Positions 11,275 to 52,554 of a stretch of 64,000 nt of DNA are shown piece after piece. A program made the position numbers and the translations under genes. Position 1 is the stretch's first letter; each line of letters begins with the position of its first letter. Below the pieces are notes generated by a model. It saw nothing but the letters and a program-made list of their open reading frames with translations. It was not told the DNA's origin and made no database searches. The stretch is from a virus: IMG/VR virus record IMGVR_UViG_3300042367_000228, positions 308,017 to 372,016 of that record; one strand, written 5' to 3'.

Positions 11275-11532
11275 ATGAAATTTGAAACAGCTCCAATCCA
11301 AAATCAAATTCAATGCAGATCCTATGATGAAGCCAAAATGTATCTAATGTTCTTAGAAATAGACGGCAAACGAGGATGGCGCATGCCTACGCGATACGAA
11401 CGCACTAAATATTTTAGAGTAGGTCAACATGTTAATGAACCTGTATGGGATCTTCTAGATGAAGACACAGTTTTATTAAATAATAAAACACGACGATTAA
11501 TACCAGTAAGAGACAGAAACGATGACAATTGA
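11275..11532 (+). CDS. W-R-L-P-T mini-protein (DUF1566-derived), copy 1
   Basis: 85 residues. First of 49 paralogs in the window. Shared plan: short N-terminus often M-[IL]-E-[LI]-A-P; core [YI]-DEA-x-x-Y-C about 15 residues in; W-R-[LMF]-P-T about 15 further; a variable middle; and C-terminal PVRD. The same landmarks frame DUF1566 (Lcl C-terminal, C-type-lectin-like) domains. Here: YDEAKMYLMF, GWRMPT, PVRDRNDDN. Overlaps the next copy by 11 bases. Function unknown. Confidence 0.75.
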   Translation: MKFETAPIQNQIQCRSYDEAKMYLMFLEIDGKRGWRMPTRYERTKYFRVGQHVNEPVWDLLDEDTVLLNNKTRRLIPVRDRNDDN

Positions 11533-11755
11533 GATATCACCAAAGGAATACTGGAAAGAAATGTGCCGAGACGAAGCACAGCTGTATTGTTTGTTCTTAG
11601 ATATAGACGGTAAAAGAGGGTGGCGATTTCCTAAGTCTGATGAATTAAGTCACCATATCATGTGGTATAAAGAAGATTTAAACAATCCTGATTTAGGTGA
11701 TCCTGACGATTTGTACCCCATAGTACCAGTACGAGATAGAAAAGATGACGATTGA
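11522..11755 (+). CDS. W-R-L-P-T mini-protein, copy 2
   Basis: 77 residues. RDEAQLYCLF, GWRFPK (T replaced by K), PVRDRKDDD. Overlaps both neighbours by 11 bases, with near-identical junction sequence GATGACAATTGA / GATGACGATTGA. Confidence 0.72.
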   Translation: MTIEISPKEYWKEMCRDEAQLYCLFLDIDGKRGWRFPKSDELSHHIMWYKEDLNNPDLGDPDDLYPIVPVRDRKDDD

Positions 11756-11999
11756 AATATCACCAATAGGTACCTGGAAGAAACCACTTCCTAAAGATCA
11801 AGCACAGCTTTATTGTATGTTCTTTGAACATGACGGCAGAGGATGGAGATTCCCAACTGAAGAAGAATGCTTAACCGATATGCGCGGAATCCCAACAATT
11901 ATAGGATGGTGTTGGAACGCAGAACGTATAGAAAGTGCCGACTATGATACTGCAAAATGCGATGTAATTTTAGTTCGCGATGTAAAAAATGATAAATAA
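11745..11999 (+). CDS. W-R-L-P-T mini-protein, copy 3
   Basis: 84 residues. KDQAQLYCMF, GWRFPT, LVRDVKNDK. Last of the first block; followed by a capsid-targeted protein gene. Confidence 0.72.
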   Translation: MTIEISPIGTWKKPLPKDQAQLYCMFFEHDGRGWRFPTEEECLTDMRGIPTIIGWCWNAERIESADYDTAKCDVILVRDVKNDK

Positions 12000-12004
12000 T
12001 TTAT

Positions 12005-12274
12005 ATGACAATAGACGAACTTTTAACTGAATTAACCTTTCACGGTTCACAATGTACTAAAGACTGTAGTGGACATCGCGCAGGCTGGAAATGGGGTAAA
12101 GCCCATCCGAATGTTGCAACAACAAACAGTGCTTCTCATCCAAGTTTTAATAACGGTGTGCGCATTGCTAACGCTAATTCTAAAGTAGTAATGATGCCAG
12201 GTGTGCGTGGTGCAGGTGGTCGTTTTGTTAAGTTTACTCCAGAACCTAAACCATCTAAACGCAATAAACCTTAA
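12005..12274 (+). CDS. Conserved phage protein with 'CTKDCSGH-AGW' motif
   Basis: 89 residues. Leader-like N-terminus MTIDELLTELTF, then QCTKDCSGHRAGWKWGK and SHPSFNNGVRIA, a pattern I associate with marine T4-like phages, of unknown function. Possibly metal-binding (two Cys, several His). A TAAATAATT box just upstream may be a late-type promoter. Followed three bases later by a GGCCCCGCTGTA element. Confidence 0.7.
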   Translation: MTIDELLTELTFHGSQCTKDCSGHRAGWKWGKAHPNVATTNSASHPSFNNGVRIANANSKVVMMPGVRGAGGRFVKFTPEPKPSKRNKP

Positions 12275-12276
12275 TA

Positions 12277-12288
12277 GGCCCCGCTGTA
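12277..12288 (+). repeat. GGCCCCGCTGTA element, copy 1
   Basis: Between the TAA at 12272-12274 and the ATG at 12294; occupies the place where a Shine-Dalgarno would be expected. Confidence 0.85.
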
Positions 12289-12293
12289 CATAT

Positions 12294-15065: not shown

Positions 15066-15284
15066 ATGATTGAACTAGCACCACTATCTGATTATAAGAT
15101 GTCATACGACAAAGCCTGGTTGTATTGTGCTACCTTGACCTATAAGAACAAATACGATTGGCGTATTCCGACTGATGCCGAGTTTACATATAACGAAGAA
15201 ATTGATGAAGAATCTTTTGATCAATCAGACGAACCACATCATAGCCATTGGCGTGTTCAACCAGTGAGGACTAAAGATGCTTGA
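15066..15284 (+). CDS. W-R-L-P-T mini-protein, copy 4
   Basis: 72 residues, RBS AGGAG. Starts MIELAP; YDKAWLYCAT, YDWRIPT, QPVRTKDA. Overlaps the next by eight bases. Confidence 0.75.
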   Translation: MIELAPLSDYKMSYDKAWLYCATLTYKNKYDWRIPTDAEFTYNEEIDEESFDQSDEPHHSHWRVQPVRTKDA

Positions 15285-15501
15285 GTTTGCCCCAATGCCG
15301 GCCGGCCGGTTCTCATTTGATGATGCCTGGTTATATTGTGCTACACTAACATATAATAACAATTATGACTGGCGCATACCAACTGAAGATGAATTTTGCA
15401 ACTACGAAGAAATTGATTGCGATGCGTTTGATCAGAATGATGAAGGTCTTAAGATAGCTAAAGTAACACATAAAATCTGTCCAGTGCGCACTGCTGATTA
15501 A
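15277..15501 (+). CDS. W-R-L-P-T mini-protein, copy 5
   Basis: 74 residues. MLEFAPMP, FDDAWLYCAT, YDWRIPT, CPVRTAD. Very similar to copy 4 (shared EEID-x-x-x-FDQ), a recent tandem duplication. Confidence 0.75.
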   Translation: MLEFAPMPAGRFSFDDAWLYCATLTYNNNYDWRIPTEDEFCNYEEIDCDAFDQNDEGLKIAKVTHKICPVRTAD

Positions 15502-15509
15502 AATACCAT

Positions 15510-15538
15510 TTGTAAAGTCCTAAGTTTTGCGCTATAAT
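15510..15538 (+). promoter_or_regulatory. Early promoter
   Basis: TTGTAA-17-TATAAT, preceded by the cassette lead AAATACCAT; RBS AAGGAG follows. For 15561. Confidence 0.85.
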
Positions 15539-15560
15539 AATGTTTTATGTAAGGAGCCAT

Positions 15561-15851
15561 ATGCTAGTAGCCACTTGTCAATCAAAATTTATAACGTATG
15601 CCGAAGCTGTTATGTATTGTTTGTTTTTAGATCACCAAGGAAAGAAAGGCTGGCGGTTGCCAACTTTACTTGAATGGGCAGATACTGCAGATGGCAGACT
15701 TACAACTAATACATGGTATCGAGAGAGTACGAATGAAGAACGAGCATTGCTTGCAAAACAATACAAACATACCCAGCAAGCTATAGAAGCTATGATTGAA
15801 CCATATGAAAATCGTAAAACAGGTATAGCAGTTGCAGTGAGGGATGAATGA
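15561..15851 (+). CDS. W-R-L-P-T mini-protein, copy 6
   Basis: 96 residues from ATG after AAGGAG. YAEAVMYCLF, GWRLPT, AVAVRDE. The variable middle is about 20 residues longer than usual and helical. Confidence 0.72.
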   Translation: MLVATCQSKFITYAEAVMYCLFLDHQGKKGWRLPTLLEWADTADGRLTTNTWYRESTNEERALLAKQYKHTQQAIEAMIEPYENRKTGIAVAVRDE

Positions 15852-16075
15852 TAGAAATATTAGCTAACCCACCTGGGATCAGTCGGAAGTTATATAATCG
15901 CGATGCAGCCTTTTTGTATATAATTACTCTAGTCCATAATGGACATGCAGACTGGCGATTTCCTACTCCAGACGAATGGGTTAACAGTCCTTTAGCGTAT
16001 ATGGCATGGCATCAAGGAAGAATTGATGACGATAGATTTTTCAGCTATCACATATACCCAGTGAGAGATATATGA
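15848..16075 (+). CDS. W-R-L-P-T mini-protein, copy 7
   Basis: 75 residues. RDAAFLYIIT, DWRFPT, YPVRDI. ATGA overlap with copy 6 and with copy 8. Confidence 0.72.
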   Translation: MIEILANPPGISRKLYNRDAAFLYIITLVHNGHADWRFPTPDEWVNSPLAYMAWHQGRIDDDRFFSYHIYPVRDI

Positions 16076-16266
16076 TTAGATTTGCTAAACCATCCGGATG
16101 GTTAAACAACACAACTCCGGAAGCTGCTGACATGCACGTATTGTTTTATGAAGAAGACGGTTTAAAATACTGGAGGAGAGCAACTAACGAAGATTTTATT
16201 GACTTTGCAATACACGTTCCTGAATCATTGTTATCTAATACATGTATTCCGGTAAAGGATTTATGA
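16072..16266 (+). CDS. W-R-L-P-T mini-protein, copy 8 (divergent)
   Basis: 64 residues. Core decayed: ADMHVLFYEEDG, WRRAT in place of WRLPT, IPVKDL. Still in frame with ATGA overlaps, so probably expressed. Confidence 0.62.
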   Translation: MIRFAKPSGWLNNTTPEAADMHVLFYEEDGLKYWRRATNEDFIDFAIHVPESLLSNTCIPVKDL

Positions 16267-16484
16267 GTATGCTTGAATTAGCCCCGCCATCAGAAAAAAT
16301 GACATATGACGAAGCAATTATGTATTGCTTTTGGTTAGAACACGATGGAAAGAAAGGCTGGAGAATGCCAACACATGAAGAATGGGCAAAGACTAAAGGC
16401 ATCATGGTGTACACTTGGAGACAGAATGATCACCGTACGATGATGGATACGATGCCTGTAGTACCGGTAAGAGGACAATTATGA
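16263..16484 (+). CDS. W-R-L-P-T mini-protein, copy 9
   Basis: 73 residues (ATG in the ATGA overlap; a second ATG at 16269 is possible). YDEAIMYCFW, GWRMPT, VPVRGQL. Confidence 0.72.
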   Translation: MSMLELAPPSEKMTYDEAIMYCFWLEHDGKKGWRMPTHEEWAKTKGIMVYTWRQNDHRTMMDTMPVVPVRGQL

Positions 16485-16894
16485 AATGGTTTAACCGAAT
16501 ATTCAATCGCAATGTATATTTAAAATTTGACGTACCTACAAACCCTCCAGACAACAACAGAGTGCGTTATGTTGTAGGAGTCCCGGTTAATCACTATGAG
16601 AAAAAAATCATTGAAATCGTTTATACTGGAATACTATGTTCCAGTGATGATGAAGCAACGATGCATTTGTTTATGATGAGTAAGCATGATGGAAAGAGAG
16701 GATGGCGACTACCTACAATACACGAAGCTATATACTGTTCAGAGCTATCAGTAGTTAAGCATTTCTCTGATTGGAATTCACTTAGAGTTCCATTAGAATT
16801 AGTTTTAGTAAGAGATGTTACAGAAGATGAGTATAACTATTACAATGGACCTATAACACGTTTCTTTAAGCAGTTTGCGCAGTGGACTTATTGA
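16481..16894 (+). CDS. W-R-L-P-T family fusion, copy 10
   Basis: 137 residues. About 50 extra N-terminal residues (MKWFNRIFNRNVYLKF ...) precede the family core (DDEATMHLFMMS, GWRLPT, LVRDVTEDE), and a 20-residue aromatic tail follows. An unusual fused member. Confidence 0.65.
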   Translation: MKWFNRIFNRNVYLKFDVPTNPPDNNRVRYVVGVPVNHYEKKIIEIVYTGILCSSDDEATMHLFMMSKHDGKRGWRLPTIHEAIYCSELSVVKHFSDWNSLRVPLELVLVRDVTEDEYNYYNGPITRFFKQFAQWTY

Positions 16895-20401: not shown

Positions 20402-20614
20402 ATGATTGAATCAGGAATGTGTTCTAGTAATTTTCTAACATACGATGAAGCCTGGCTCTTCTGTATCACTTGCACACACTTCAAGAAATATGACTGGCGA
20501 ATGATGACACGACGTGAATTTATAGAGTATAAACCAAGAGAAAAATGGTTCGAAGTCACCGGCGTGTCACATTTAATAGCCCAGGTACTACCTGTGAGAG
20601 ATGTAAATGATTAG
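20402..20614 (+). CDS. W-R-L-P-T mini-protein, copy 11
   Basis: 70 residues. YDEAWLFCIT, DWRMMT, LPVRDVND. Overlaps copy 12 by eight bases. Confidence 0.72.
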   Translation: MIESGMCSSNFLTYDEAWLFCITCTHFKKYDWRMMTRREFIEYKPREKWFEVTGVSHLIAQVLPVRDVND

Positions 20615-20858
20615 AAGAGATTTAGCTTACAATACACACTTAGAATACTTAGATTATTCTAACTATAAAATGGATTGGGACAGCGCATGGTTATACTGTG
20701 CTACCTGTACATATAAAGACATGTATGATTGGCGAATGCTTACTCCATATGAATTTCGTAATGATCTATACATACACAGCTGGCATGCCGCTTCACGAAA
20801 GGACAACTTTCCAGCATTTGTATTACCAGTTCGAGATAGAGGCCCCGCTGTAACATGA
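20607..20858 (+). CDS. W-R-L-P-T mini-protein, copy 12, tail from GGCCCC element
   Basis: 83 residues. WDSAWLYCAT, DWRMLT, LPVRDR, then GPAVT and the stop, all encoded by a GGCCCCGCTGTAAC element at the 3' end. The element therefore changed the C-terminus. Confidence 0.72.
   Translation: MIRRDLAYNTHLEYLDYSNYKMDWDSAWLYCATCTYKDMYDWRMLTPYEFRNDLYIHSWHAASRKDNFPAFVLPVRDRGPAVT
20841..20852 (+). repeat. GGCCCCGCTGTA element, copy 7 (in-frame)
   Basis: Translated as G-P-A-V at the end of copy 12, and two bases before the ATG of copy 13. Confidence 0.9.
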
Positions 20859-21073
20859 GCATAGAAATATTACCAACAATTGATAAACAATTTACATACG
20901 ATGAAGCAATGATGTACTGCTTTTTTCTTATTATAGACGGCAAAAAAGGATGGAGACTACCTACAAGAGAAGAATATAATTCTTCTGTTAAAATATGGGG
21001 TTGGCATCAAGATGATGGTAGAGCATCAACATCTGATCTTTTCAAAGTAACCCCAGTGCGGGACTCTGACTAA
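20855..21073 (+). CDS. W-R-L-P-T mini-protein, copy 13
   Basis: 72 residues. YDEAMMYCFF, GWRLPT, TPVRDSD. Its start lies two bases after a GGCCCC element; the only purine-rich tract is GATAGAGG before it. Confidence 0.7.
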   Translation: MSIEILPTIDKQFTYDEAMMYCFFLIIDGKKGWRLPTREEYNSSVKIWGWHQDDGRASTSDLFKVTPVRDSD

Positions 21074-21144: not shown

Positions 21145-21441
21145 ATGTCTACAGAACTTATTGAAAAATTAGCACACGCACCAGGTCCGCATTCAGCTTA
21201 CATTGAGGATTCTGAATTACGTGATATGGCAATTGTATGGGCAGTTGCAATTCGTAATGAAAATCGAGTATCGGGTACTGAATCAGAGTATTTAAAACTA
21301 ATGCGTGACATGATGGAAAATGAGCCATTTTTGTATAGACGATTTGCTGACTATCTAATCAATACTGTTGATGAAGGCACATATAAAGAAGCGTGGAGTC
21401 AAACAGCAGATAGAATTCGTAAAACATTACTACCTAAGTGA
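21145..21441 (+). CDS. Hypothetical protein
   Basis: 98 residues, RBS CGGAG. Helical, soluble; no domain recognised. Leads a run of six family genes. Confidence 0.62.
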   Translation: MSTELIEKLAHAPGPHSAYIEDSELRDMAIVWAVAIRNENRVSGTESEYLKLMRDMMENEPFLYRRFADYLINTVDEGTYKEAWSQTADRIRKTLLPK

Positions 21442-21448
21442 GGTAAGC

Positions 21449-21655
21449 ATGACACACGTAGAACATGGACCGAGATCCGAAAACAAAATGACTTATGATG
21501 AAGCAATAATGTATTGCTTCTGGTTTACTTACAATGGTAAGAAAGGATGGCGACTTCCGACCTTTCATGAATTTGTAGATGGGAACTCTTGGTATAAAGA
21601 TGCTGAGATTACTAAACGCAAGTGGTATGTAAAACCTGTGAGGGACATAAAATGA
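21449..21655 (+). CDS. W-R-L-P-T mini-protein, copy 14
   Basis: 68 residues. YDEAIMYCFW, GWRLPT, KPVRDIK; RBS GAGGTAAG. Confidence 0.72.
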   Translation: MTHVEHGPRSENKMTYDEAIMYCFWFTYNGKKGWRLPTFHEFVDGNSWYKDAEITKRKWYVKPVRDIK

Positions 21656-21969
21656 ACTTTGAAATAGCACCACGCGACAAATGGTTAGCAGAAACTCCTT
21701 ACGACCAAGGAGCGATGTATTGCCTATTCCTTGAAATTGATGGAAAGAAAGGATGGCGATTGCCAACTAATGAAGAAGCTGACATGTTAGTAAACACAGT
21801 AGATCCGGGTAATGATTTTGAGAATCCCGAAGTCCTTCCAGAGTTAGAGGAGTTTAATTCCTATTGGTTTGATCCTGATCATTGGGGGTTTTGGACACAC
21901 GAAGATACAGTTGACGACTTTGATCTTGACGAACTGTTTACTGCGATTCCAGTAAGGGACATAACATGA
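21652..21969 (+). CDS. W-R-L-P-T mini-protein, copy 15
   Basis: 105 residues. YDQGAMYCLF, GWRLPT, IPVRDIT. The middle is expanded and acidic (PELEEFNSYWFDPDHWGFW). Confidence 0.72.
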   Translation: MNFEIAPRDKWLAETPYDQGAMYCLFLEIDGKKGWRLPTNEEADMLVNTVDPGNDFENPEVLPELEEFNSYWFDPDHWGFWTHEDTVDDFDLDELFTAIPVRDIT

Positions 21970-22259
21970 ATATTGAAATAGCACCAAAAACAACGGAGAT
22001 ACAAGCCACGTGGGATGAAGCAGTTATGTATTGTTTTTTTCTTGAAATAGATGGAAAGAAAGGATGGAGACTGCCTACTAAAGAGGAATTAGATTATATC
22101 TACCATTCAAAAAATGATTTCATTGATGCCTACTACTGGTCCTCTACTGAGTACAATGGCAGCAGCGCCTGGGGTCAGGTTTTCACCAGTGGCACCCAGT
22201 TCAGCTCCAGTAAGAACGGCGGCAGCTACTACGTTAGAGCAATAAGGGACATAATATGA
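21966..22259 (+). CDS. Full-length DUF1566 (Lcl_C-like) domain protein, copy 16
   Basis: 97 residues. Beyond the shared core (WDEAVMYCFF, GWRLPTKEEL) it keeps the DUF1566 C-half: AYYWSSTEY, AWGQVFTSGTQ and YYVRAIRD. This member links the mini-proteins to the C-type-lectin-like DUF1566 domain. The C-half is locally GC-richer (AGCGCCTGGGGTCAGG), hinting at recent acquisition. Confidence 0.85.
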   Translation: MNIEIAPKTTEIQATWDEAVMYCFFLEIDGKKGWRLPTKEELDYIYHSKNDFIDAYYWSSTEYNGSSAWGQVFTSGTQFSSSKNGGSYYVRAIRDII

Positions 22260-22333
22260 ACTTTGAAGTCGCACCTAACGGTGCTCGAACTGATAATTGC
22301 CATATGCAAAACTTAACTGGAGAACTACGATGA
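22256..22333 (+). pseudogene. Truncated W-R-L-P-T family remnant
   Basis: 25-residue frame starting MNFEVAPNGAR, like the N-terminus of copy 15 (MNFEIAPRDKW), then no core. Coupled by ATGA overlaps on both sides. Confidence 0.5.
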
Positions 22334-22806
22334 GAAAATCCCTATCACATAAAGAAATCCTAATACTAAAACTCAATAATCTTTTAGCTACTTCTGAATC
22401 ACTCGAAGACAAACTCGTAACCGAGAATAATCAATGGCAATGCCGTGCAACAGTCCTACGCAGCGATATTCAAAATTTGATTGACTATGTAGGCTGGTCG
22501 GTAGAAGAGAATAATATGAATATTGAAATAGCACCAAAATCTGCCGAGGAGTCATGTAGTTGGGATACTGCACGAACATATTGTTTATTTCTTAACTTTG
22601 ATGGAAAAACTGATTGGCGACTTCCAACAAAAGAAGAACTAAATCAAATCTATGAATCAGATAATGATTTTCGTAGTGGTCGATACTGGGCTTCTAATGA
22701 ACAAAGTGTAGATACTGCTTGGAGTCAAAGTTTTGAAAATGGTAGCAGATACCCTAACTTTAAGTTCCACGGTGGCCTATACGTTAGACCAGTAAGGGAC
22801 TTATGA
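22330..22806 (+). CDS. DUF1566 protein with fused N-terminal helix, copy 17
   Basis: 158 residues, RBS TGGAG. Residues 1-61 are an extra helical region; an internal ATG at 22515 begins the usual MNIEIAPKS. Core WDTARTYCLF, DWRLPTKEEL, then DUF1566 C-half YWASNE, AWSQSFENG, YVRPVRDL. The join has no stop, so it is a gene fusion or dual-start gene. Confidence 0.75.
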   Translation: MRKSLSHKEILILKLNNLLATSESLEDKLVTENNQWQCRATVLRSDIQNLIDYVGWSVEENNMNIEIAPKSAEESCSWDTARTYCLFLNFDGKTDWRLPTKEELNQIYESDNDFRSGRYWASNEQSVDTAWSQSFENGSRYPNFKFHGGLYVRPVRDL

Positions 22807-23069
22807 TTATTGATTATAAGATTGATCGTGCTCCGTCACGTATAGTAAACAACTATGAAGAGGCTTGGCTGTATTGCCTTACCTGTAATCATGATGGACA
22901 TAATGATTGGAGGTTACCTACTGTAGACGAATGGCAATATTCGTCTACAAACACAATGCCTTTAGAAGCTTATTATGAAAACAATTATTTCTTTAAAGTT
23001 GAACCGGCTATGCAGAATAAGGCAGTTCCAGTACGTGAAGTAAAATATTCTTTACAAATCAACAAATAA
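22803..23069 (+). CDS. W-R-L-P-T mini-protein, copy 18
   Basis: 88 residues. YEEAWLYCLT, DWRLPT, VPVREVK plus an eight-residue tail that overlaps the next promoter's -35 box. Confidence 0.72.
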   Translation: MIIDYKIDRAPSRIVNNYEEAWLYCLTCNHDGHNDWRLPTVDEWQYSSTNTMPLEAYYENNYFFKVEPAMQNKAVPVREVKYSLQINK

Positions 23070-23991: not shown

Positions 23992-24153
23992 GTGCTTAAC
24001 CGTGATGTATTTGAAAACAATGTAATCAAGGCACTTGAAGATTACATAAATTACAACAATCAGATAACTCCTCTTAGTGAGGATTTCTTTCATAGAATCG
24101 AAGCACTGAAACAAAAGGCACAGGAGTTACAATCTAAACAGGATAAATCATGA
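23992..24153 (+). CDS. Hypothetical small helical protein
   Basis: 53 residues from GTG after AGGAGG. Helical (IEALKQKAQELQSKQ). ATGA overlap with the next gene. Confidence 0.55.
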   Translation: MLNRDVFENNVIKALEDYINYNNQITPLSEDFFHRIEALKQKAQELQSKQDKS

Positions 24154-24539
24154 ACATTACATTTGCAGGATTAAAGACAACTGGTAAAGTAGAAACCGTT
24201 TGGGCTGTAATTGATTTAGAGAGAATAACTTCACCTAACCGTTGGACTCACTATACTGATTACATTGTAGTATGGGGTAGACGAGGAGGCAAGTTAAGAA
24301 CTATACGGATCAATCAAGATTATCAAATAACCTTAAACGATAAAATATTTATTGACGACTATGAGCCATGGGCCGCTACTTTAATATTAGATCGCGGCTA
24401 TGTAGGCGATGCTGCTAATCGAATATATACAAAGTTTAAAAAAGGTTACAAACCAGTTAAGGCTGAGAATTTAGCAGATGTATATCCAACCTTTGAAAAA
24501 GATTTAGATAAGATCAACTTTTGGGAGCAACTGAAATGA
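24150..24539 (+). CDS. Paralog pair A, first copy (WGR-like segment)
   Basis: 129 residues. Starts MNITFAGLKTTGKVETVW, shared with the next gene; contains VVWGRRGGKL, reminiscent of a WGR domain. Function unknown. Confidence 0.65.
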   Translation: MNITFAGLKTTGKVETVWAVIDLERITSPNRWTHYTDYIVVWGRRGGKLRTIRINQDYQITLNDKIFIDDYEPWAATLILDRGYVGDAANRIYTKFKKGYKPVKAENLADVYPTFEKDLDKINFWEQLK

Positions 24540-24880
24540 AAATTACATTTGCAGGTTTGAAGACAACTGGTAAAGTAGAAACCGTTTGGGTTGTACTCGA
24601 GTTAGGTAAACATCAGCCGCAAGACTGGAATTATGATTATGTAATTGCTTGGGGCAGACGAGGCGGAAAGTTGCAATCTATGACTCGATTAGGATGTTGT
24701 CGACCAAACTTGGAATATAACTCTGCTCTTTTCCACAGGTATAGTACCATTGGCAAACTAATCAATAAGAAGATTAACAAAGAGTATGAAAGTATTGATG
24801 AAGCTCGGTTAGATGAAGTATATCCAGAGTTCGAAAAAGATTTAGATAAACTTGCATTTTGGGAAACATTGAAACTATGA
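24536..24880 (+). CDS. Paralog pair A, second copy
   Basis: 114 residues. MKITFAGLKTTGKVETVW, IAWGRRGGKLQ; the C-terminus also matches the first copy (VYP-x-FEKDLDK ... FWE). A tandem duplication. Confidence 0.65.
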   Translation: MKITFAGLKTTGKVETVWVVLELGKHQPQDWNYDYVIAWGRRGGKLQSMTRLGCCRPNLEYNSALFHRYSTIGKLINKKINKEYESIDEARLDEVYPEFEKDLDKLAFWETLKL

Positions 24881-32838: not shown

Positions 32839-32853
32839 CGCGTAGGAGGAATT

Positions 32854-36427: not shown

Positions 36428-36448
36428 TTATGTTGGTTTAAACAGTTC

Positions 36449-36477: not shown

Positions 36478-36510
36478 ATGTTTTTACTTACACAAACTGT
36501 GGAGCGTAAT

Positions 36511-37549: not shown

Positions 37550-37595
37550 AGTTTTAAAACTAAATAGATTACAAGATTGTAACAGAATATTTAAT

Positions 37596-37667: not shown

Positions 37668-37707
37668 TTAAATGTTTTGTAATAATACAGTTAACAACCA
37701 TTTTTAT

Positions 37708-37955: not shown

Positions 37956-38675
37956 TTAGGGTTTGCGTTTACAGTTATCAAAATGGTATCGTTTCATATT
38001 TCCACCTCTTCCTATTTTATTACAGTAAGGGCAGGTTAATTCAATTTTTTGTTTTCCCTTCATTGCGGCACTTATGTTAGCTTTATGATTAGCTGATTTA
38101 AGTATACCAGTTTTAGCAGAACTTATGTTAGATTTATGATTATCTGAAAGTTGTTTACCATTATGCGCAGACCGCATCTTAGATTTAGTTTCCTCTGAAT
38201 GTCTTTTTCCTGTATTAGTAACACTTAATTTAGCTCGTGTTTTGGATGAAACAACTCTTCCTGTATTTGTAGAACTTAGCTTAGTCCGCATACTATCTGG
38301 CATACTTTTACCTTTGTTAGGCGACGGCCTTCCTGTAAGAGATGCACTTATTTTAGCCTTATGTTCATCTGATATAGTTTTTCCTTTATTAGCAATACTG
38401 GCTGCTATAGAAAACTTTCGTCTAAGCCATCCATACAATTTATTTGTAATTCTACAATTACCCATCATATTAGCCGCATACACTAATTTATGATTATGTG
38501 GGTAGATTTTTACAAGTAGCTGATGTGCTACATAATGAGCCTCGGGAGTTAATAATACTAAGTTACTTGGATTGTTAGAACCGCCCATACAACGAGGAAT
38601 TATGTGATGCTTTTCTGTATAGTCTGCAATCATATCTTTTGCAGTTAATTGTTCATATATCTTTTGATAGTTCAT
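37956..38675 (-). CDS. HNH homing endonuclease with NUMOD3 repeats (2)
   Basis: 239 residues; N-terminal 50 residues almost identical to the protein at 25375-26160 (EKHHIIPRCMGGSN, TPEAHYVAHQLL). Then NUMOD3-type repeats (DEHKAKISASLTGR, KTRAKLSVTNTGK, DNHKSNISSAKTG) and C-terminal CPYCN zinc-finger-like end. Inserted next to tRNA-Cys, opposite to all neighbours. Confidence 0.92.
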   Translation of the reverse strand: MNYQKIYEQLTAKDMIADYTEKHHIIPRCMGGSNNPSNLVLLTPEAHYVAHQLLVKIYPHNHKLVYAANMMGNCRITNKLYGWLRRKFSIAASIANKGKTISDEHKAKISASLTGRPSPNKGKSMPDSMRTKLSSTNTGRVVSSKTRAKLSVTNTGKRHSEETKSKMRSAHNGKQLSDNHKSNISSAKTGILKSANHKANISAAMKGKQKIELTCPYCNKIGRGGNMKRYHFDNCKRKP

Positions 38676-39839: not shown

Positions 39840-39916
39840 CTGCCTATAGCTCAAATGGACAGAGCGTTCCCCTCCTAAGGGAAAGGCTATGGGTTCAAGT
39901 CCCGTTAGGCAGGCCA
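39840..39916 (+). tRNA. tRNA-Arg (CCU)
   Basis: 77 bases with CCA. Acceptor CTGCCTA/TAGGCAG, D-arm GCTC/GAGC, anticodon loop CTCCTAA (CCU), T-arm ATGGG-TTCAAGT-CCCGT. Begins on the base after the lipoprotein stop codon. Confidence 0.93.
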
Positions 39917-45008: not shown

Positions 45009-45272
45009 ATGTTAAACTCAATATCAAGCGTATCAGCAATACTATCAGATGCCAAATATGTTATGGAAGTATTCGCTAAACAAAAAGAAGCTCAACAACC
45101 TATTGTTACTCCAGAGAAAGCATTGCATTCTACACAAGTGATGAACAAGGTGCATAACGATCAATTAGCAAAAGATCCAACGTGGATTAATGGAGTTCAC
45201 TGCCATGGCTCACTTAGCCGACATAACTACACATACTCTTATACGGGTCAAACACCAGTTGCAATCCAGTAA
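45009..45272 (+). CDS. Hypothetical protein
   Basis: 87 residues, RBS AAAAGGAG. Its end overlaps the next promoter's -35 box. No domain recognised. Confidence 0.6.
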   Translation: MLNSISSVSAILSDAKYVMEVFAKQKEAQQPIVTPEKALHSTQVMNKVHNDQLAKDPTWINGVHCHGSLSRHNYTYSYTGQTPVAIQ

Positions 45273-45287
45273 GTAATTTGCTATAAT
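45259..45287 (+). promoter_or_regulatory. Early promoter
   Basis: TTGCAA-17-TATAAT; for 45318. Confidence 0.87.
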
Positions 45288-46567: not shown

Positions 46568-46765
46568 ATGCACTTTATAACATTAAAAAGAGTAGTCAAT
46601 AAATCAACAGTACAAGTAGACACATTTGAAATAGACATTAGAGTAAAAGACATTGTAGCATTTCATGATGGCCTGATTGTAGTAGGCGCCCATCAGTTCC
46701 ATGTAATTGAATCAAGAAGAGACATCCACGATAAAATTCGTAAAGCAGATACAACATGGGAATAA
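46568..46765 (+). CDS. Hypothetical protein
   Basis: 65 residues, RBS AAGGAA. Beta-rich; opens the operon that contains the 25-gene array, although no promoter is obvious. Confidence 0.58.
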   Translation: MHFITLKRVVNKSTVQVDTFEIDIRVKDIVAFHDGLIVVGAHQFHVIESRRDIHDKIRKADTTWE

Positions 46766-47145
46766 TTCCGACTAACCCGCCACCGAGCATGCCACTGCAG
46801 ACATTGCAAAGTTCATATTTTTCAAGTCCTGTGATTAGCAACAGCCATATGCAAGAGTTAAGGACAGGACTTAGCGAACAAATTATTAAGCCAGTACTTA
46901 AATGGGCAGGTAGAACGATGTTAAACTTAGACCTAGCTCCTAGGTCACAAAACAAAATGTCATTTGACGAAGCTCAAATGTATATTCTCTTTTGTAAACA
47001 CAATGGATACAAGAACTGGAGACTTCCAACGCGTGAAGAATGGGAAACTATTAACGGTTGGGAGACACCTGTATGGTTAGTTGAAAAGGACAACGTAGTA
47101 ACGGATAAAGACTGGTATGCACAACCAGTACGGGACAAGAAATGA
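46756..47145 (+). CDS. W-R-L-P-T family with N-terminal extension, copy 25
   Basis: 129 residues. Residues 1-54 resemble a phage virion or Mu-type tail segment rich in Pro/Ser; an internal ATG at 46918 begins the usual MLNLDLAPRS. Core FDEAQMYILF, NWRLPT, QPVRDKK. Heads the array to 52554. Confidence 0.66.
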   Translation: MGIIPTNPPPSMPLQTLQSSYFSSPVISNSHMQELRTGLSEQIIKPVLKWAGRTMLNLDLAPRSQNKMSFDEAQMYILFCKHNGYKNWRLPTREEWETINGWETPVWLVEKDNVVTDKDWYAQPVRDKK

Positions 47146-47384
47146 TAGAGCTAGCGCCACATGAGCTATGGAAGTATGACGTAAACAAACATGAAGCTAG
47201 GCTGTACATATTCATGCTTAAAGGCTATAGAATGGGTACATTAGGAGAGATGCAATCATTAATCGACGCTATACGAGAAGTTGATCATGAAATGTGGGAC
47301 GCATGGACACTAGATGCAATAGATAGCGACGCTATACCAGACGACGAAACCGGAACAGCTATACCACTGAGAGATATAACATGA
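47142..47384 (+). CDS. W-R-L-P-T mini-protein, copy 26 (divergent)
   Basis: 80 residues. NKHEARLYIFM, GYRMGT replaces WRLPT, IPLRDIT. MIELAP start. Confidence 0.66.
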   Translation: MIELAPHELWKYDVNKHEARLYIFMLKGYRMGTLGEMQSLIDAIREVDHEMWDAWTLDAIDSDAIPDDETGTAIPLRDIT

Positions 47385-47623
47385 TAGAATATGGAAAGAA
47401 ATCAGAAAACGATTTAAACTACGATGCGGCATTTATGTATTGCTTTTGGCATGAGCCAGTGGGCACTTGGAGGCTTCCGACTGAGCAGGAATACTTCCAA
47501 AAGATGCGACTAAAACACCCAAGTAGTATAATTCCCACTTGGTATGAAGATAGAGATCAGCTTGCAGAGAAAGTACATCAACAACCTGCTAAAATGCGAG
47601 TAGTGCCTGTACGATCGCTATGA
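47381..47623 (+). CDS. W-R-L-P-T mini-protein, copy 27
   Basis: 80 residues. YDAAFMYCFW, TWRLPT with a shortened loop before it, VPVRSL. Confidence 0.72.
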   Translation: MIEYGKKSENDLNYDAAFMYCFWHEPVGTWRLPTEQEYFQKMRLKHPSSIIPTWYEDRDQLAEKVHQQPAKMRVVPVRSL

Positions 47624-47877
47624 CCCAGGTTAGTTACTATGCTAATAATATAAGGTTTCACCATTTGATTGAAGTAGCTCCAACGTCTAATGAAATGATG
47701 ACGTACGACCATGCTAAGATGTATATCATGTTCTATGAACACAATGGACATAGAGATTGGAGGTTGCCTACGTTACAAGAATGGCTAAGCCATAATCCGC
47801 CATTGATAGGGTGGGATGATCACGGAGAACATATTAGTGATATAGTTCGTTATGTAACCCCAGTAAGAGACCTATGA
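47620..47877 (+). CDS. W-R-L-P-T mini-protein, copy 28
   Basis: 85 residues. Ten-residue extension before LIEVAPTS; YDHAKMYIMF, DWRLPT, TPVRDL. Confidence 0.72.
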   Translation: MTQVSYYANNIRFHHLIEVAPTSNEMMTYDHAKMYIMFYEHNGHRDWRLPTLQEWLSHNPPLIGWDDHGEHISDIVRYVTPVRDL

Positions 47878-48101
47878 AACTTGAACTAGCTCCTCCATCT
47901 ATTCAACTACACAGAGATGAAGCATTCCTATATGTTTGGACGTGTACACACAACAACAAGTATGACTGGCGTCTGCCTACCCTACATGAATCAAGCAAAA
48001 ATAGTCTTACTGGCTGGAATGAATATGACTTATATGTATTTGCACATGAGATATCATACGACCCAATCTATTGGACAATTACCCCAGTGAGAGACTTATG
48101 A
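47874..48101 (+). CDS. W-R-L-P-T mini-protein, copy 29
   Basis: 75 residues. MKLELAPPS, RDEAFLYVWT, YDWRLPT, TPVRDL. Confidence 0.74.
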   Translation: MKLELAPPSIQLHRDEAFLYVWTCTHNNKYDWRLPTLHESSKNSLTGWNEYDLYVFAHEISYDPIYWTITPVRDL

Positions 48102-48313
48102 TTGAATTAGCTCCAGTATCTACAGAAAGGATGACCTATGACAATGCTAAATTGTACATCCTGTTCTATGAATATAATGGCTATAGAGATTGGCGTCTGC
48201 CTACATTCACTGAATGGATCACCCGCGACGATGTATATGGGTGGGATGATACAGAACCATCAATTGATTATGGTCCAAAACTTCGTGTTGTAACCCCAGT
48301 GAGAGACTTATGA
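48098..48313 (+). CDS. W-R-L-P-T mini-protein, copy 30
   Basis: 71 residues. MIELAPVS, YDNAKLYILF, DWRLPT, TPVRDL; close to copy 28 in the middle (GWDD). Confidence 0.74.
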   Translation: MIELAPVSTERMTYDNAKLYILFYEYNGYRDWRLPTFTEWITRDDVYGWDDTEPSIDYGPKLRVVTPVRDL

Positions 48314-48591
48314 TTGAAATAGCCCCAAGATTCGCACAACGTATGACATACGACGAAGCCATATTAAACTTATTCATGTTTGTACATAATGGAAAGAAAG
48401 ACTGGCGCATGCCTACCGAATACGAATACTACTACGGTACCGCCCGAGCTATAGAGAAGTCGTGGCATCGCGAAAAAGTAGATGAGTTTACTAACTGGTA
48501 CTTAACCCCTGTGAGAGATGTCAAATTTGTTTACATACCCAGCATAACGTGTTATAATAAAGACATACTGTTTAATAAGAGATACAGATGA
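48310..48591 (+). CDS. W-R-L-P-T mini-protein, copy 31, extended through a promoter
   Basis: 93 residues. YDEAILNLFM, DWRMPT, TPVRDVK, then a 22-residue tail translated from an early-promoter sequence (48530-48558). Confidence 0.7.
   Translation: MIEIAPRFAQRMTYDEAILNLFMFVHNGKKDWRMPTEYEYYYGTARAIEKSWHREKVDEFTNWYLTPVRDVKFVYIPSITCYNKDILFNKRYR
48530..48558 (+). promoter_or_regulatory. Early promoter inside the array
   Basis: TTTACA-17-TATAAT within the end of copy 31; gives the downstream 18 copies their own transcript. Confidence 0.82.
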
Positions 48592-48848
48592 TAGAACTAG
48601 CACCTAAAGAACTATGGCTTGAACAATCTACACAAAACGAAGCATTGATGCACATATTCTTCCAAAAGGGTTATCGCTTGCCTACATTTGAAGAACTACC
48701 TCAAATGAGACAAATACTAAACCGAGAAGTAATATTAGTGTGGACTGAAAACACAGTACGTGACCCATTGTTTGAAATGTTTGATCTAGATAACAGGTCA
48801 TTGCTTCCGTTTAAAGCTAAAGTTATTCCAGTGAGGGATGTATGTTAG
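48588..48848 (+). CDS. W-R-L-P-T mini-protein, copy 32
   Basis: 86 residues. QNEALMHIFF, GYRLPT, IPVRDVC. Similar to copy 26 in lacking the tryptophan. Confidence 0.68.
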   Translation: MIELAPKELWLEQSTQNEALMHIFFQKGYRLPTFEELPQMRQILNREVILVWTENTVRDPLFEMFDLDNRSLLPFKAKVIPVRDVC

Positions 48849-49087
48849 AGTTTGGACCGAGATTAGAAAGAGGTATCAACTCGTATGAGTTAATATCTCA
48901 AGGCATTAACTCATATGATGATGCGTTTTTGGCCTGTTTAACATGTGACCATAGGGGATATTATGATTGGCGTTTACCAACCAGAAAAGAGTATTTTGAC
49001 GAGGATTTAATGTCTGGAGCGTGGTATGAAAGCAAGCCATCATGGCGCAGAGCATGGTATGTAGTACCAGTGAGGGATAAATGTTAG
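48842..49087 (+). CDS. W-R-L-P-T mini-protein, copy 33
   Basis: 81 residues. Internal duplication GINSYELISQGINSYDD; FLACLT, YDWRLPT, VPVRDKC. Confidence 0.72.
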   Translation: MLEFGPRLERGINSYELISQGINSYDDAFLACLTCDHRGYYDWRLPTRKEYFDEDLMSGAWYESKPSWRRAWYVVPVRDKC

Positions 49088-49299
49088 AAATAGGCCCATG
49101 CTCATCTCACACACTAATATTAGATGAAGCCTGGCTATACTGTATTACACTAGAACATAACGGACATAGAGATTGGAGATTGCCTACTTGGCAGGAAATG
49201 AATAGCCATCAAATGCGAAACTGTAGAGGCTGGACGAACCCGTACTATCTTAGTTCTAGTCTTAGCCAAATGCTTGTTTACCCAGTGAGAGATTTATGA
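49081..49299 (+). CDS. W-R-L-P-T mini-protein, copy 34
   Basis: 72 residues. LDEAWLYCIT, DWRLPT, YPVRDL. Confidence 0.75.
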   Translation: MLEIGPCSSHTLILDEAWLYCITLEHNGHRDWRLPTWQEMNSHQMRNCRGWTNPYYLSSSLSQMLVYPVRDL

Positions 49300-49514
49300 T
49301 TGAAACAGGATACCAATCAGCACAACAATTAGAGTATGACGAAGCACTGCTGTATTGTTATACCTGTACCGATAGACAAAAATATGACTGGCGTATGCCT
49401 ACATCAAAAGAACACAACCACTTCCCAGCTACTACTTGGCATATTGATAGAATACCCGATATGGTCCTATGGATGGAACTTTATGTAATTCCAGTGAGAG
49501 ATAAAGATGTTTGA
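49296..49514 (+). CDS. W-R-L-P-T mini-protein, copy 35
   Basis: 72 residues. YDEALLYCYT, YDWRMPT, IPVRDKDV. Confidence 0.75.
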   Translation: MIETGYQSAQQLEYDEALLYCYTCTDRQKYDWRMPTSKEHNHFPATTWHIDRIPDMVLWMELYVIPVRDKDV

Positions 49515-49734
49515 ACAAGCACCTATGATCAAGTATGTTACTATAGACGAAGCTGAACTGTACACGATGACGCTAACCTATAACAATCACTACGATTGGA
49601 GGCTCCCTACTATAATAGAACTACGTCACGCTACGCCTGATATATCCAAACGCCCAGTATGTTGGCATCAGCATGATCTTATGGGTCAGTTGGATGATAT
49701 GAAATGCGCATTGATCCCAGTGAGAACTATATGA
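49507..49734 (+). CDS. W-R-L-P-T mini-protein, copy 36
   Basis: 75 residues. IDEAELYTMT, YDWRLPT, IPVRTI. Confidence 0.74.
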   Translation: MFEQAPMIKYVTIDEAELYTMTLTYNNHYDWRLPTIIELRHATPDISKRPVCWHQHDLMGQLDDMKCALIPVRTI

Positions 49735-49967
49735 TTGAATTAGGACCACATGACGACTGCTTTGTAACGATAGACGAAGCAATGTTATACATCTATACCC
49801 TAACCCACAACAACAAATATGACTGGCGTTTTCCGACAGCAGCAGAATATGATGACACTGATGAGATGCCTCCTATGACCTGGCATAGCACCTGGTATGA
49901 CTATACCGTACATTACGCTAATGATTCAGAACGAGCAGTTTACCCAGTGAGAGATATAGATGATTGA
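49731..49967 (+). CDS. W-R-L-P-T mini-protein, copy 37
   Basis: 78 residues. MIELGPHD, IDEAMLYIYT, YDWRFPT, YPVRDIDD. Confidence 0.74.
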   Translation: MIELGPHDDCFVTIDEAMLYIYTLTHNNKYDWRFPTAAEYDDTDEMPPMTWHSTWYDYTVHYANDSERAVYPVRDIDD

Positions 49968-50184
49968 CATACACACAAACAGTAAACTGGTCTCATACAC
50001 AGAAGCCGAACTATATGCTTGGACTTGTACCAATCAAGGCTATTATGATTGGCGATTACCTAACTTTGATGACCCTATACCATTCTTTATGCAAACCGAA
50101 TGCTGGATTTCCTATACGTTGCCATATACTGATTACTTCGCAGAAGGCAGAACAATAGTAGTAGTGAGAGATAAAGATGATTGA
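49960..50184 (+). CDS. W-R-L-P-T mini-protein, copy 38
   Basis: 74 residues. YTEAELYAWT, YDWRLPN, VVVRDKDD. Confidence 0.72.
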   Translation: MIDIHTNSKLVSYTEAELYAWTCTNQGYYDWRLPNFDDPIPFFMQTECWISYTLPYTDYFAEGRTIVVVRDKDD

Positions 50185-50401
50185 AGCTAAACTTGTATCA
50201 CACTCAAAATCGTGTGAAGAAGCTGAACTTTACATTTGGACACTAACACACGAAAACAAGTACGATTGGCGTTTTCCAACACGCGATGAATGCGTAAAAC
50301 TTACAGGTGGTCCAATATGGTGTGATTCACTAATCAAAAGTCCATATATAGAGCCACTCGACCGCTTTTATTTAATAGCAGTGAGAGATACAGATGCTTG
50401 A
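50177..50401 (+). CDS. W-R-L-P-T mini-protein, copy 39
   Basis: 74 residues. CEEAELYIWT, YDWRFPT, IAVRDTDA. Confidence 0.73.
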   Translation: MIEAKLVSHSKSCEEAELYIWTLTHENKYDWRFPTRDECVKLTGGPIWCDSLIKSPYIEPLDRFYLIAVRDTDA

Positions 50402-50597
50402 GTTTGCTAGTCAATCCCATTTACTCCCTTATTACGAAGCTTGGCTTTACTGCGTTACTTGTACTCACAACAACAAGTATGACTGGCGATATCCTACTAT
50501 TGGAGATGTATGGGAGCATCCGCAGATTCTCAAGAATAATTTTACACCACCATACGACTTGTTCTACATAACCCCAGTGAGAACTCAAGATGATTGA
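50394..50597 (+). CDS. W-R-L-P-T mini-protein, copy 40
   Basis: 67 residues. YYEAWLYCVT, YDWRYPT, TPVRTQDD. Confidence 0.74.
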   Translation: MLEFASQSHLLPYYEAWLYCVTCTHNNKYDWRYPTIGDVWEHPQILKNNFTPPYDLFYITPVRTQDD

Positions 50598-50811
50598 ACA
50601 AGCTACTACTAAACGGCGTGACTTCTCATATGACGAAGCTTGGCTATACGTAGCCACTTGCACCCATAAAAAGAAATACGATTGGCGCATGCCTACTATG
50701 CTAGAACACTTTGGAAGAAAGTATCGACCTCTGATACTTGGACAATGGTATGAGCGAGACTATTTTGAACACCGAACATACGTAACCCCTGTGAGAACAA
50801 ACGATGATTGA
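50590..50811 (+). CDS. W-R-L-P-T mini-protein, copy 41
   Basis: 73 residues. YDEAWLYVAT, YDWRMPT, TPVRTNDD. Confidence 0.75.
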   Translation: MIEQATTKRRDFSYDEAWLYVATCTHKKKYDWRMPTMLEHFGRKYRPLILGQWYERDYFEHRTYVTPVRTNDD

Positions 50812-51001
50812 AGCAGCCCCTATGTCACATTTAATGCCATACAACGATGCATTCTTATATGCGATAACTTGCACCCATAACGACAAGTATGACTGGCGAA
50901 TGCCAACTGCTGGCGACTTCTCCAATAATGTTAAACTAAGAACAACTGATCAACGCCGCAACATACAATTTTGTCCTATCAGAGGATCAAGAGATGATTG
51001 A
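50804..51001 (+). CDS. W-R-L-P-T mini-protein, copy 42
   Basis: 65 residues, the shortest in the array. YNDAFLYAIT, YDWRMPT, CPIRGSRDD. Confidence 0.73.
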   Translation: MIEAAPMSHLMPYNDAFLYAITCTHNDKYDWRMPTAGDFSNNVKLRTTDQRRNIQFCPIRGSRDD

Positions 51002-51209
51002 ACTAGCCCCACGAACACCGGAACTTATGGACTATGACCTAGCTTGGCTATACTGTATTACACTTGGCCACAATGACTGTTATGACTGGCGTATACCAAC
51101 AGCCGACGAATATAAGAGTTCTCGGTGTAGTTTGTCTTGGCATGAAACTAGATATATGTTCCTAGATCCATTATATCATGTAACCCCAGTGAGAACTAAC
51201 AATGATTGA
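50994..51209 (+). CDS. W-R-L-P-T mini-protein, copy 43
   Basis: 71 residues. MIELAPRT, YDLAWLYCIT, YDWRIPT, TPVRTNND. Confidence 0.75.
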   Translation: MIELAPRTPELMDYDLAWLYCITLGHNDCYDWRIPTADEYKSSRCSLSWHETRYMFLDPLYHVTPVRTNND

Positions 51210-51426
51210 ACAAGCCCCTAAGACTACTGACAAATTTGATGCCTATAGTGCCGAAATTTACATATACACTTGCACACACGACAACAAGTATGACTGGCGA
51301 ATGCCTACTATAAGAGAATGTGCAGACTTGATTATAACCGGTAGTTGGAATGCTAGTGATTTTAACCATATGACAATGTCCCCACATAGGTGGAAGGTAA
51401 CCCCTGTGAGAACTAACAATGATTGA
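51202..51426 (+). CDS. W-R-L-P-T mini-protein, copy 44
   Basis: 74 residues. MIEQAPKT, YSAEIYIYT, YDWRMPT, TPVRTNND. Confidence 0.74.
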   Translation: MIEQAPKTTDKFDAYSAEIYIYTCTHDNKYDWRMPTIRECADLIITGSWNASDFNHMTMSPHRWKVTPVRTNND

Positions 51427-51652
51427 ATATGGCCTTAAATTAGAAAAAGTCGTAGCCTATGACACAGCTTGGTTATACTGCGCTACACTAACACACGACA
51501 ACAAGTACGACTGGAGATTACCAACCAACACAGAATGGCATAAGTTCTTTAGACAAGACCCAGTTGCACCAAACTATTCACGGGTTTGGTATAAAGATAG
51601 ACTCACACCATATCAGTGGTATTGCTTACCGGTGAGAACTAACAATGATTGA
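51419..51652 (+). CDS. W-R-L-P-T mini-protein, copy 45
   Basis: 77 residues. YDTAWLYCAT, YDWRLPT, LPVRTNND. Confidence 0.75.
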   Translation: MIEYGLKLEKVVAYDTAWLYCATLTHDNKYDWRLPTNTEWHKFFRQDPVAPNYSRVWYKDRLTPYQWYCLPVRTNND

Positions 51653-51857
51653 ACTTGCTATACGACCTCAAGAAGAAATGGATTACGATACTGCATGGCT
51701 GTATTGTCTAACACTTGACTATAACGGACATAAAGATTGGCGATTGCCTACAGGAACTGAATATACTACTACGGATGCGCTATCATTTAGTTGGTTTGAA
51801 GAAAGAAAAACCGGCGAAAGATGGGTATGCCAACCAGTAAGGACTATAAATGATTGA
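51645..51857 (+). CDS. W-R-L-P-T mini-protein, copy 46
   Basis: 70 residues. YDTAWLYCLT, DWRLPT, QPVRTIND. Confidence 0.75.
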   Translation: MIELAIRPQEEMDYDTAWLYCLTLDYNGHKDWRLPTGTEYTTTDALSFSWFEERKTGERWVCQPVRTIND

Positions 51858-52077
51858 ACTAGCCCCAGAAGCAAAAGAATATATGAACTATGACACCGCC
51901 TGGCTATACTGCGCTACGCTAACCCGCAACAACAAGTATAACTGGCGATTACCGACTCATAGAGAATACAACAGATCCCTACTTATAATGAATTGGTTTG
52001 AAGATAGATATCGTATCTTGGGATTGGGCGATGCGCGTGACCTTCATGTAACCCCAGTAAGGACTATAAATGATTGA
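51850..52077 (+). CDS. W-R-L-P-T mini-protein, copy 47
   Basis: 75 residues. MIELAPEA, YDTAWLYCAT, YNWRLPT, TPVRTIND. Confidence 0.75.
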   Translation: MIELAPEAKEYMNYDTAWLYCATLTRNNKYNWRLPTHREYNRSLLIMNWFEDRYRILGLGDARDLHVTPVRTIND

Positions 52078-52285
52078 ACTAGCACTACAAACACAACAAG
52101 AAATAACTTATGATCTAGCTTGGCTATACTGTATTACACTTGACTACAATGGCCATAAGGACTGGCGACTACCAACAGCTAACGAATATAAAAGTTTTCA
52201 GTTTACATCAGCTTGGCATGAAGGTAGATTTCAAGTTCTACAAGAATATTATGTACTCTATGTAATCCCAGTGAGAACCTTATGA
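52070..52285 (+). CDS. W-R-L-P-T mini-protein, copy 48
   Basis: 71 residues. YDLAWLYCIT, DWRLPT, IPVRTL; similar to copy 43 (ANEYKS, WHEGRF). Confidence 0.75.
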   Translation: MIELALQTQQEITYDLAWLYCITLDYNGHKDWRLPTANEYKSFQFTSAWHEGRFQVLQEYYVLYVIPVRTL

Positions 52286-52554
52286 TCGAACTTGCTCCCT
52301 ACTTATACCAAACGAAACAAGACGATGCGTTCTTATTCATTATTACTTGCACACACAAAGACAAATACGACTGGCGTTTCCCTACTATGTTTGAAATCTT
52401 ATATAGTGGTATGTTTGAGAATTTAGATCCATGGAGATCTGATAATGTATATCCTAAACTTATTCACTTGATTGACTTGACATACACAGCTGTTCCGGTA
52501 AGAGATTATCCTTTTCCAACTAGACCTCCCGGACTTTATGTACAAAAGCAATGA
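52282..52554 (+). CDS. W-R-L-P-T mini-protein, copy 49 (array end)
   Basis: 90 residues. QDDAFLFIIT, YDWRFPT, VPVRDYP, then a Pro-rich tail PFPTRPPGLYVQKQ. Closes the array. Confidence 0.74.
   Translation: MIELAPYLYQTKQDDAFLFIITCTHKDKYDWRFPTMFEILYSGMFENLDPWRSDNVYPKLIHLIDLTYTAVPVRDYPFPTRPPGLYVQKQ

Follow-up and report, generated by a model that had tools for sequence, protein, structure and literature searches.

Background

The C-type-lectin fold lends itself naturally to sequence variation, as in diversity-generating retroelements (DGRs), where the diversity is created by reverse transcription and mostly concerns surface proteins. Here we analyze a window of 64,000 nucleotides, bases 308017-372016 and hence the end of a 372,016-base viral record (IMGVR_UViG_3300042367_000228), in which the same scaffold appears to be cut to about 75 amino acids and to have given rise to dozens of stable genes, in what is probably an early region. 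The best explanation of these 49 genes, to which we give an even chance, is that they constitute a repertoire of small intracellular binders or inhibitors. In Bacillus phage G, about 35 copies of a zinc-ribbon protein have been called unprecedented, and a survey of 224 jumbo phages found no FGS domains, which have the C-type-lectin fold, in jumbo phages (PMC7824862). A literature search that covered few subscription papers and preprints found nothing on DUF1566 arrays in phages. What appears to be new is not the domain itself but its multiplication into an array of coupled cassettes that encode minimal single-domain proteins.

The 49-member family

A profile hidden Markov model (HMM) seeded with the WR-x-P-T open reading frames (ORFs) and iterated at a threshold of E<1e-3 converges on exactly 49 ORFs in the window, all on the plus strand, with lengths of 64-158 amino acids; the first starts at 11275 and the last ends at 52554. 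Single-linkage BLASTP clustering of the window ORFs gives one cluster of exactly 49, the same count, and the family HMM ties all 49 to the long members at E 3e-9 or better. When the amino-acid sequences of the same ORFs are shuffled (five sets) or reversed (one set), the family HMM has no match below E=0.17. A chance or frame artefact is rejected on the strength of these empty controls and of the purifying selection described below. The 49 related small ORFs reported in the initial annotation are thus borne out in count, length and extent; the single block implied there is not, since the genes form nine groups with about 29 kb of other sequence between them. The groups, all on the plus strand, extend over 11275-11999 (3 genes), 15066-16894 (7), 20402-21073 (3), 21371-23069 (5), 28669-29067 (1), 29372-29632 (1), 31613-32051 (2), 32614-33102 (2) and 46756-52554 (25), the last being a head-to-tail run. 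Together the 49 genes account for 12.2 kb. Within groups, most genes share 4 to 11 bases with their neighbour, an arrangement like that of an operon with translational coupling. The only further copy in the record outside the window is located at 251506-251700 on the minus strand and, read by eye, is a full-length DUF1566-type ORF with WQLPN.

Judging by its tail sheath, with best matches at 44-46% identity to Sinorhizobium phage Phosso, Agrobacterium phage Atu_ph07 and Pseudomonas phage PA5oct, the record is a T4-like jumbo myophage; the earlier designation as a phage was right because this protein is homologous to those of T4-type jumbo myophages.

Relationship to DUF1566 and predicted fold

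The WRLPT core is loose: its third residue is L, M, F, I or Y, two members have YR instead of WR, and WRRAT, WRMMT, WRMLT, WRFPK, WRLPV and WRLPN are seen once each. In the 49-row alignment, R33 is invariant and A17, W32, P35, T36, E39, V69 and R70 are at least 90% conserved; at the C-terminus the motif reads PVR[D/T], 11 members having T. The Pfam profile PF07603 (Lcl_C, DUF1566) matches 21 of the 49 members at E<0.01. Its curated cut-off (34.9 bits) is exceeded by members 16 and 17, the only ones that reach the full-length domain (about 117 positions), and by one further copy in the genome, with the short members falling below. Weak family matches to FGE-sulfatase and Fib_succ_major, along with a match to TvpA below significance, point to the same superfamily as Lcl_C. 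The spacing between the T of the core and the V of the terminal motif has a median of 32 residues vs 54 in the two full-length copies; most members lack about 22 residues of the stretch that leads from the WRLPT helix to the last strand, but retain this strand.

An AlphaFold2 model of member 21 (31613-31840), built with the family alignment, has a predicted local distance difference test (pLDDT) value of 95, and 13 of its 14 PDB matches in a Foldseek search are C-type-lectin-like domains; in the viral library, the matches include poxvirus OPG161, herpesvirus C-type lectins and a phage DUF1566 protein. The model of member 26 (47142-47384), in which the core reads YRMGT, has a pLDDT of 96; nearly all of its 50 listed PDB matches are C-type-lectin-like or Link modules, and it superposes on the C-terminal domain of Legionella Lcl (8q4e) with a template modelling (TM) score of 0.64. 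Across the matches of the models to PDB entries, TM scores reach 0.70. A C-type-lectin-like fold for the family members is therefore supported by two models, including that of a member that lacks WRLPT. Unrelated folds, the outcome named in the initial annotation as speaking against it, did not turn up: the two members modelled share a common predicted fold. The proposed derivation from DUF1566 likewise gains support from the Lcl_C profile matches and the superposition on 8q4e. Other parts of that annotation need rewording. The shared motifs exist, but the strict forms W-R-[LMF]-P-T and PVRD are too narrow; the domain is indeed stripped down, but the loss is internal (from WRLPT..W to the last strand) rather than removing most of the C-terminal half.

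Selection and the variable middle segment

Over 37 reciprocal best pairs at >=75% identity between the window and a close relative, G005 (IMGVR 3300035190_000444), omega is 0.24. The 49 genes can be considered real because they are under purifying selection. The framework, with an omega of 0.19, is more constrained than the middle segment, with 0.34 (bootstrap P(var<=frame)=0.001). At positions 37-66 the mean entropy amounts to 3.32 bits, against 1.69 at positions 13-36 and 1.12 at positions 67-71. Among the paralogues, which are mostly about 20-56% identical, the sequence from WRLPT to PVRD is thus near-random, with W50 and E39 as exceptions. Being near-random between paralogues yet under purifying selection between orthologues, each middle segment is specific to its paralogue and retained by it. 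A set of binding faces would look like this, which is not in itself evidence of binding.

Recent tandem duplication for dosage is rejected because the paralogues are so dissimilar and have orthologues in distant phages. A related but broader scheme, which we consider unlikely, is that all members share one partner or are building blocks of homo- or hetero-oligomers, for example of a scaffold in the infected cell, with the multiplicity reflecting dosage or assembly diversity rather than the recognition of different targets. Conservation of the framework across paralogues is compatible with this scheme, a common role could be reflected in the negative net charge of 42 of the 49 members, and the overlapping genes in fixed orientation resemble one operon. 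However, dosage predicts near-identical copies, not paralogues with near-random middles whose orthologues are under purifying selection, and the number and composition of the set vary between close relatives.

The same data bear on selfish or neutral expansion, in which junction repeats would favour duplication and the copies would accumulate and drift with little function. Such repeats are present, one of them having been used by a single-cassette indel (see below), and copy content differs between relatives. Nevertheless, we regard this account as quite improbable: omega compares with the 0.22 of 48 neighbouring genes, clear orthologues are kept in phages with tail sheaths only 56-57% identical, and no decayed copy was noticed among the 49.

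The lectin-like fold itself raises the question of whether the members are true lectins that bind small ligands or glycans within the cell, such as nucleotide sugars or sugar-modified phage DNA. Legionella Lcl recognises glycosaminoglycans (PMC11162425), and the window contains a nucleotide-sugar epimerase gene. The variable segment, however, has no conserved polar ligand-binding residues, W50 being its only constant position, and 49 different faces would be superfluous for one class of ligand, so that this role seems very unlikely.

Cassette junctions

Comparison of the window with G005 reveals cassettes that are absent, inserted or reordered, always with the same orientation. The junction AGTGAGAGATATAGATGATTGA (49944-49968, plus strand), which joins a gene end (..VRDIDD) to the start of the next gene, has an imperfect direct repeat near 50163-50185, and the cassette in between is missing from G005. 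At the site of the missing 49960-50184, the G005 junction is a hybrid of two window junctions, both of which contain AGTGAGAGATA(T/A)AGATGATTGA. This single-cassette indel (member 38) falls exactly on the junction repeat. Conversely, G005 has an extra cassette between the orthologues of the genes at 48842 and 49081.

A junction encodes the PVRD/T end of one protein and sits immediately upstream of the following ATG; its typical sequence, GTGAGAGA, is rich in purines and resembles a Shine-Dalgarno sequence. The Arg codon of PVR is AGA or AGG in 31 of 35 coupled genes vs 5 of 12 uncoupled ones (p=0.003), and these codons are used at the WR motif in 13 of 47 cases, compared with the 31 of 35 at PVR in coupled genes (p=3e-8). 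The contrast between the PVR and WR codons recurs in G005 and in two further relatives, G002 and G004, although these recurrences are not fully independent because the phages share ancestry. The PVR codons are biased as if they served as the ribosome site for the next gene. We infer that each cassette carries the ribosome site of its successor, so that cassettes could be shuffled with expression intact.

Distribution in related phages

Five further phage records carry sets of 2-49 members: G005 has 45, G002 (372 kb) 49 matches, G004 (98 kb) 28, G006 10 and G007 2. Two records were left out as non-independent, namely G001 (100% identical to the array of the window) and G003 (which repeats part of the G002 matches), and the relatives were searched with two sub-alignments, the full A1 profile being too divergent for a pattern search. 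G002 and G004 are the distant phages mentioned above with respect to the tail sheath, and they share members with the window at 58-97% identity. The upper value belongs to member 24 in G002 and suggests exchange of members between phages. Hence the amplification is phage-borne, as first proposed, but is not a recent event in one phage; rather, the expansion is common to a phage lineage. A tblastn search with two members against cultured phages finds only remote DUF1566-like proteins, the family profile finds no arrays and no members in Atu_ph07, Phosso, PA5oct and Hallingskeid, and cellular genomes yield three weak matches only. Another protein (L052:1402-3168), tried as a kinship marker, gave no match.

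Promoter-like sites and genomic context

The extended -10 motif TGCTATA(A/C)TAT(G/A) occurs in 23 copies in the window, all on the plus strand, vs 2 in bases 1-300000 of the record; the window copies of this repeat (TGCTATAATATGTTTTTACTTA type) span 21102-62302. This concentration suggests that the region is transcribed early by the host polymerase, and the region has the early-type combination of many small genes and strong host-type promoter motifs. Single promoter-like sites precede several groups, with consensus matches only moderately more frequent than in shuffled sequence. On the plus strand, these include an extended -10 site upstream of group A (11217-11245) and another within the 3' end of member 31 and immediately before member 32 (48530-48558), both identified by consensus only, as well as two identified by repeat and consensus: one of the repeat family TGCTATAATATG upstream of member 19 (28608-28636) and one of the family TGCTATAATAT(G/A) about 1.5 kb upstream of the 25-gene array (45259-45287).

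This context is relevant to the usual role of C-type-lectin folds in phages, according to which the members would be virion or tail adhesins that form a repertoire of receptor-binding tips. DGR-varied proteins with this fold serve phage tropism (PMC10743442, PMC6199706), and in Shewanella phage vB_Sb_QDWS (L073:1971-3156) a DUF1566-like ORF, a possible DGR target, has a retron-type reverse transcriptase gene about 0.7 kb away. In the window, by contrast, the genes belong to a region of small genes of unknown kind that has sigma70-like promoters, whereas the tail sheath and further long genes of structural type are located elsewhere in the record; most encode single domains of about 75 amino acids with no fibre or attachment domain; and an RVT_1 search of the 372-kb record gives no match to a reverse transcriptase, although three control genomes do match. 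An adhesin role thus appears rather doubtful, at the level of neutral expansion.

Proposed function

Returning to the repertoire of intracellular binders or inhibitors, purifying selection, early-type promoters, the absence of reverse transcriptase and the confinement of variability to one segment are consistent with this reading without proving it. Under the scheme we propose, the family would be a lineage-specific set of minimal DUF1566-derived C-type-lectin-like proteins of about 75 amino acids, probably made within the host cell early in infection. A constant framework, consisting of the N-terminal strand, the first helix, the WR-P-T..E turn and the last strand with PVR, would carry a stretch of some 30 residues, different in each paralogue, as the probable binding face. 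Each member would bind and neutralise or redirect a different intracellular partner, be it a host takeover target, a defence protein or a protein of a competitor. The genes would be translationally coupled cassettes in which the end of one gene supplies the ribosome-binding site of the next, and recombination at short junction repeats would lose, gain or reorder cassettes with expression intact. Binding by the members, their targets and their cytoplasmic location are all inferred. The strongest form of the idea is put forward as a tentative possibility: the phage lineage would have evolved intracellular mini-binders that form an antibody-like repertoire, encoded by genes and built on a stripped C-type-lectin scaffold. 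The cassettes would be self-propagating, their 3' end being both the last strand and the next ribosome site, and phages could trade specificities with expression unimpaired.

Several observations weigh against such a repertoire. All Foldseek matches have weak E-values (the lowest being 0.098 in the viral library and 0.38 in PDB, with every PDB value >0.3), as expected for domains of 75-80 residues, and therefore the fold assignment rests on the consistency of the matches and on sequence homology. Between close relatives, selection on the variable segment is purifying, if weaker, rather than positive, so that an arms race is not directly visible. Early expression, too, is deduced from the promoter consensus and the character of the region only. 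Finally, family turnover is not faster than that of the region, with 37 of 49 members kept in G005 vs 48 of 65 other genes. Unusually fast turnover of the family is accordingly not supported, the whole region turning over similarly.

If the members do bind different targets, one phage would hold a ready panel of natural mini-binders, probably directed against host or defence proteins. Such a panel would chart the hidden conflict that jumbo phages wage inside the cell, and it could be mined in the same way as anti-CRISPR collections. The cassette design, with a protein motif that doubles as a ribosome site and recombination at junction repeats, offers a testable model for growing and trading repertoires.

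Member genes and other genes of the region

All member genes are on the plus strand and, unless stated otherwise, are assigned by the family HMM, with comparison to relatives wherever a relative is named. Group A comprises members 1 (11275-11532), 2 (11522-11755) and 3 (11745-11999), the last with an 83% identical orthologue in G005. Group B consists of members 4 (15066-15284), 5 (15277-15501), 6 (15540-15851), 7 (15848-16075), 8 (16072-16266; the shortest, at 64 amino acids), 9 (16242-16484) and 10 (16481-16894; with an N-terminal extension), of which 8 and 9 are without an orthologue in G005. Members 11 (20402-20614), 12 (20607-20858) and 13 (20855-21073) make up group C. In group D, member 14 (21371-21655; 69% identical in G002 and G006) and member 15 (21652-21969) are followed by the two near full-length DUF1566 proteins that also exceed the Pfam cut-off, members 16 (21966-22259) and 17 (22330-22806; 158 amino acids), and by member 18 (22803-23069). 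Two members stand singly: the divergent member 19 (28669-29067; E 3e-9), which has an N-terminal extension, and member 20 (29372-29632; 80% in G002). The modelled member 21 is paired with member 22 (31830-32051), and member 23 (32614-32826) with member 24 (32854-33102; 97% identical in the distant phage G002).

The 25-gene array opens with member 25 (46756-47145), which has an N-terminal extension and is 80-91% identical in G005, G002 and G004. The divergent, modelled member 26 is followed by members 27 (47381-47623), 28 (47620-47877), 29 (47874-48101), 30 (48098-48313), 31 (48310-48591), 32 (48588-48848; with YRLPT), 33 (48842-49087), 34 (49081-49299), 35 (49296-49514), 36 (49507-49734) and 37 (49704-49967). 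Three genes are annotated from the comparison with relatives, namely member 38 (49960-50184), precisely absent from G005, and members 41 (50590-50811) and 44 (51202-51426), the order of which differs there. Among the remaining genes are members 39 (50177-50401), 40 (50394-50597) and 42 (50804-51001); members 43 (50994-51209), 45 (51419-51652), 47 (51850-52077) and 48 (52070-52285), all four without an orthologue in G005; and member 46 (51645-51857), absent from G005 and 83% identical in G002. Member 49 (52282-52554) closes the array.

Between the groups there are other small genes, mostly with no known family among those scanned; the array region contains >60 other small ORFs. Further small paralogous pairs are found at 36089-36846, at 24150-24877, at 36946-37452 with 56352-56756, and at 18320 with 33169. 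Two related genes antisense to the region (25378-26160 and 37959-38675, both minus strand) resemble HNH homing endonucleases by eye, and tRNA-Met(cat) and tRNA-Arg(cct) are encoded within the region at 37595-37668 and 39840-39916. Elsewhere in the window, the product of 9099-9821 is weakly similar at its C-terminus to PHROG 15752 (protein kinase / inhibitor of host transcription), and 2701-3252 (minus strand) encodes an AlgH/DUF179-like protein. Other observations include a ClpA-like AAA+ unfoldase encoded by a phage (L060:15005-17284, minus strand) and a 682-amino-acid protein with CHASE2 sensor and adenylate/guanylate cyclase domains, unusual for a phage (L064:6390-8435; G000:246390-248435, minus strand).

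Comparison with known systems

With Lcl_C/DUF1566 proteins (8q4e), the family shares a homologous profile, the WR-P-T..E motif, the terminal strand and, in member 26, the structural similarity described above. Unlike these proteins, the window copies are mostly shortened internally (32 vs 54 residues), stand alone and exist as about 49 diverged copies, whereas Legionella Lcl is a single extracellular adhesin that includes a collagen-like region. DGR variable proteins (Mtd, TvpA and TaqVP; PMC5006420, PMC6328139) similarly employ the C-type-lectin fold as a constant scaffold for variable residues, and the window family has a remote, sub-threshold similarity to TvpA and the FGE-sulfatase superfamily. 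A DGR origin in the usual sense is nevertheless rejected because the record has no reverse transcriptase; no near-identical pair of family members was seen in the window, no search for template and variable repeats having been made. In contrast to DGRs, diversity here resides in many stable genes under purifying selection and not in mutagenic retrohoming. The counter-defence gene tifA of T4 (PMC9391042) is comparable in that its copy number is altered by recombination; however, its copies are segmental and arose within an evolution experiment, whereas those in the window are old, diverged and individually maintained. The zinc-ribbon expansion of Bacillus phage G is likewise a large expansion of a single family in one jumbo phage, from which the present family differs in its 49 copies, its fold and its arrangement in coupled cassettes.

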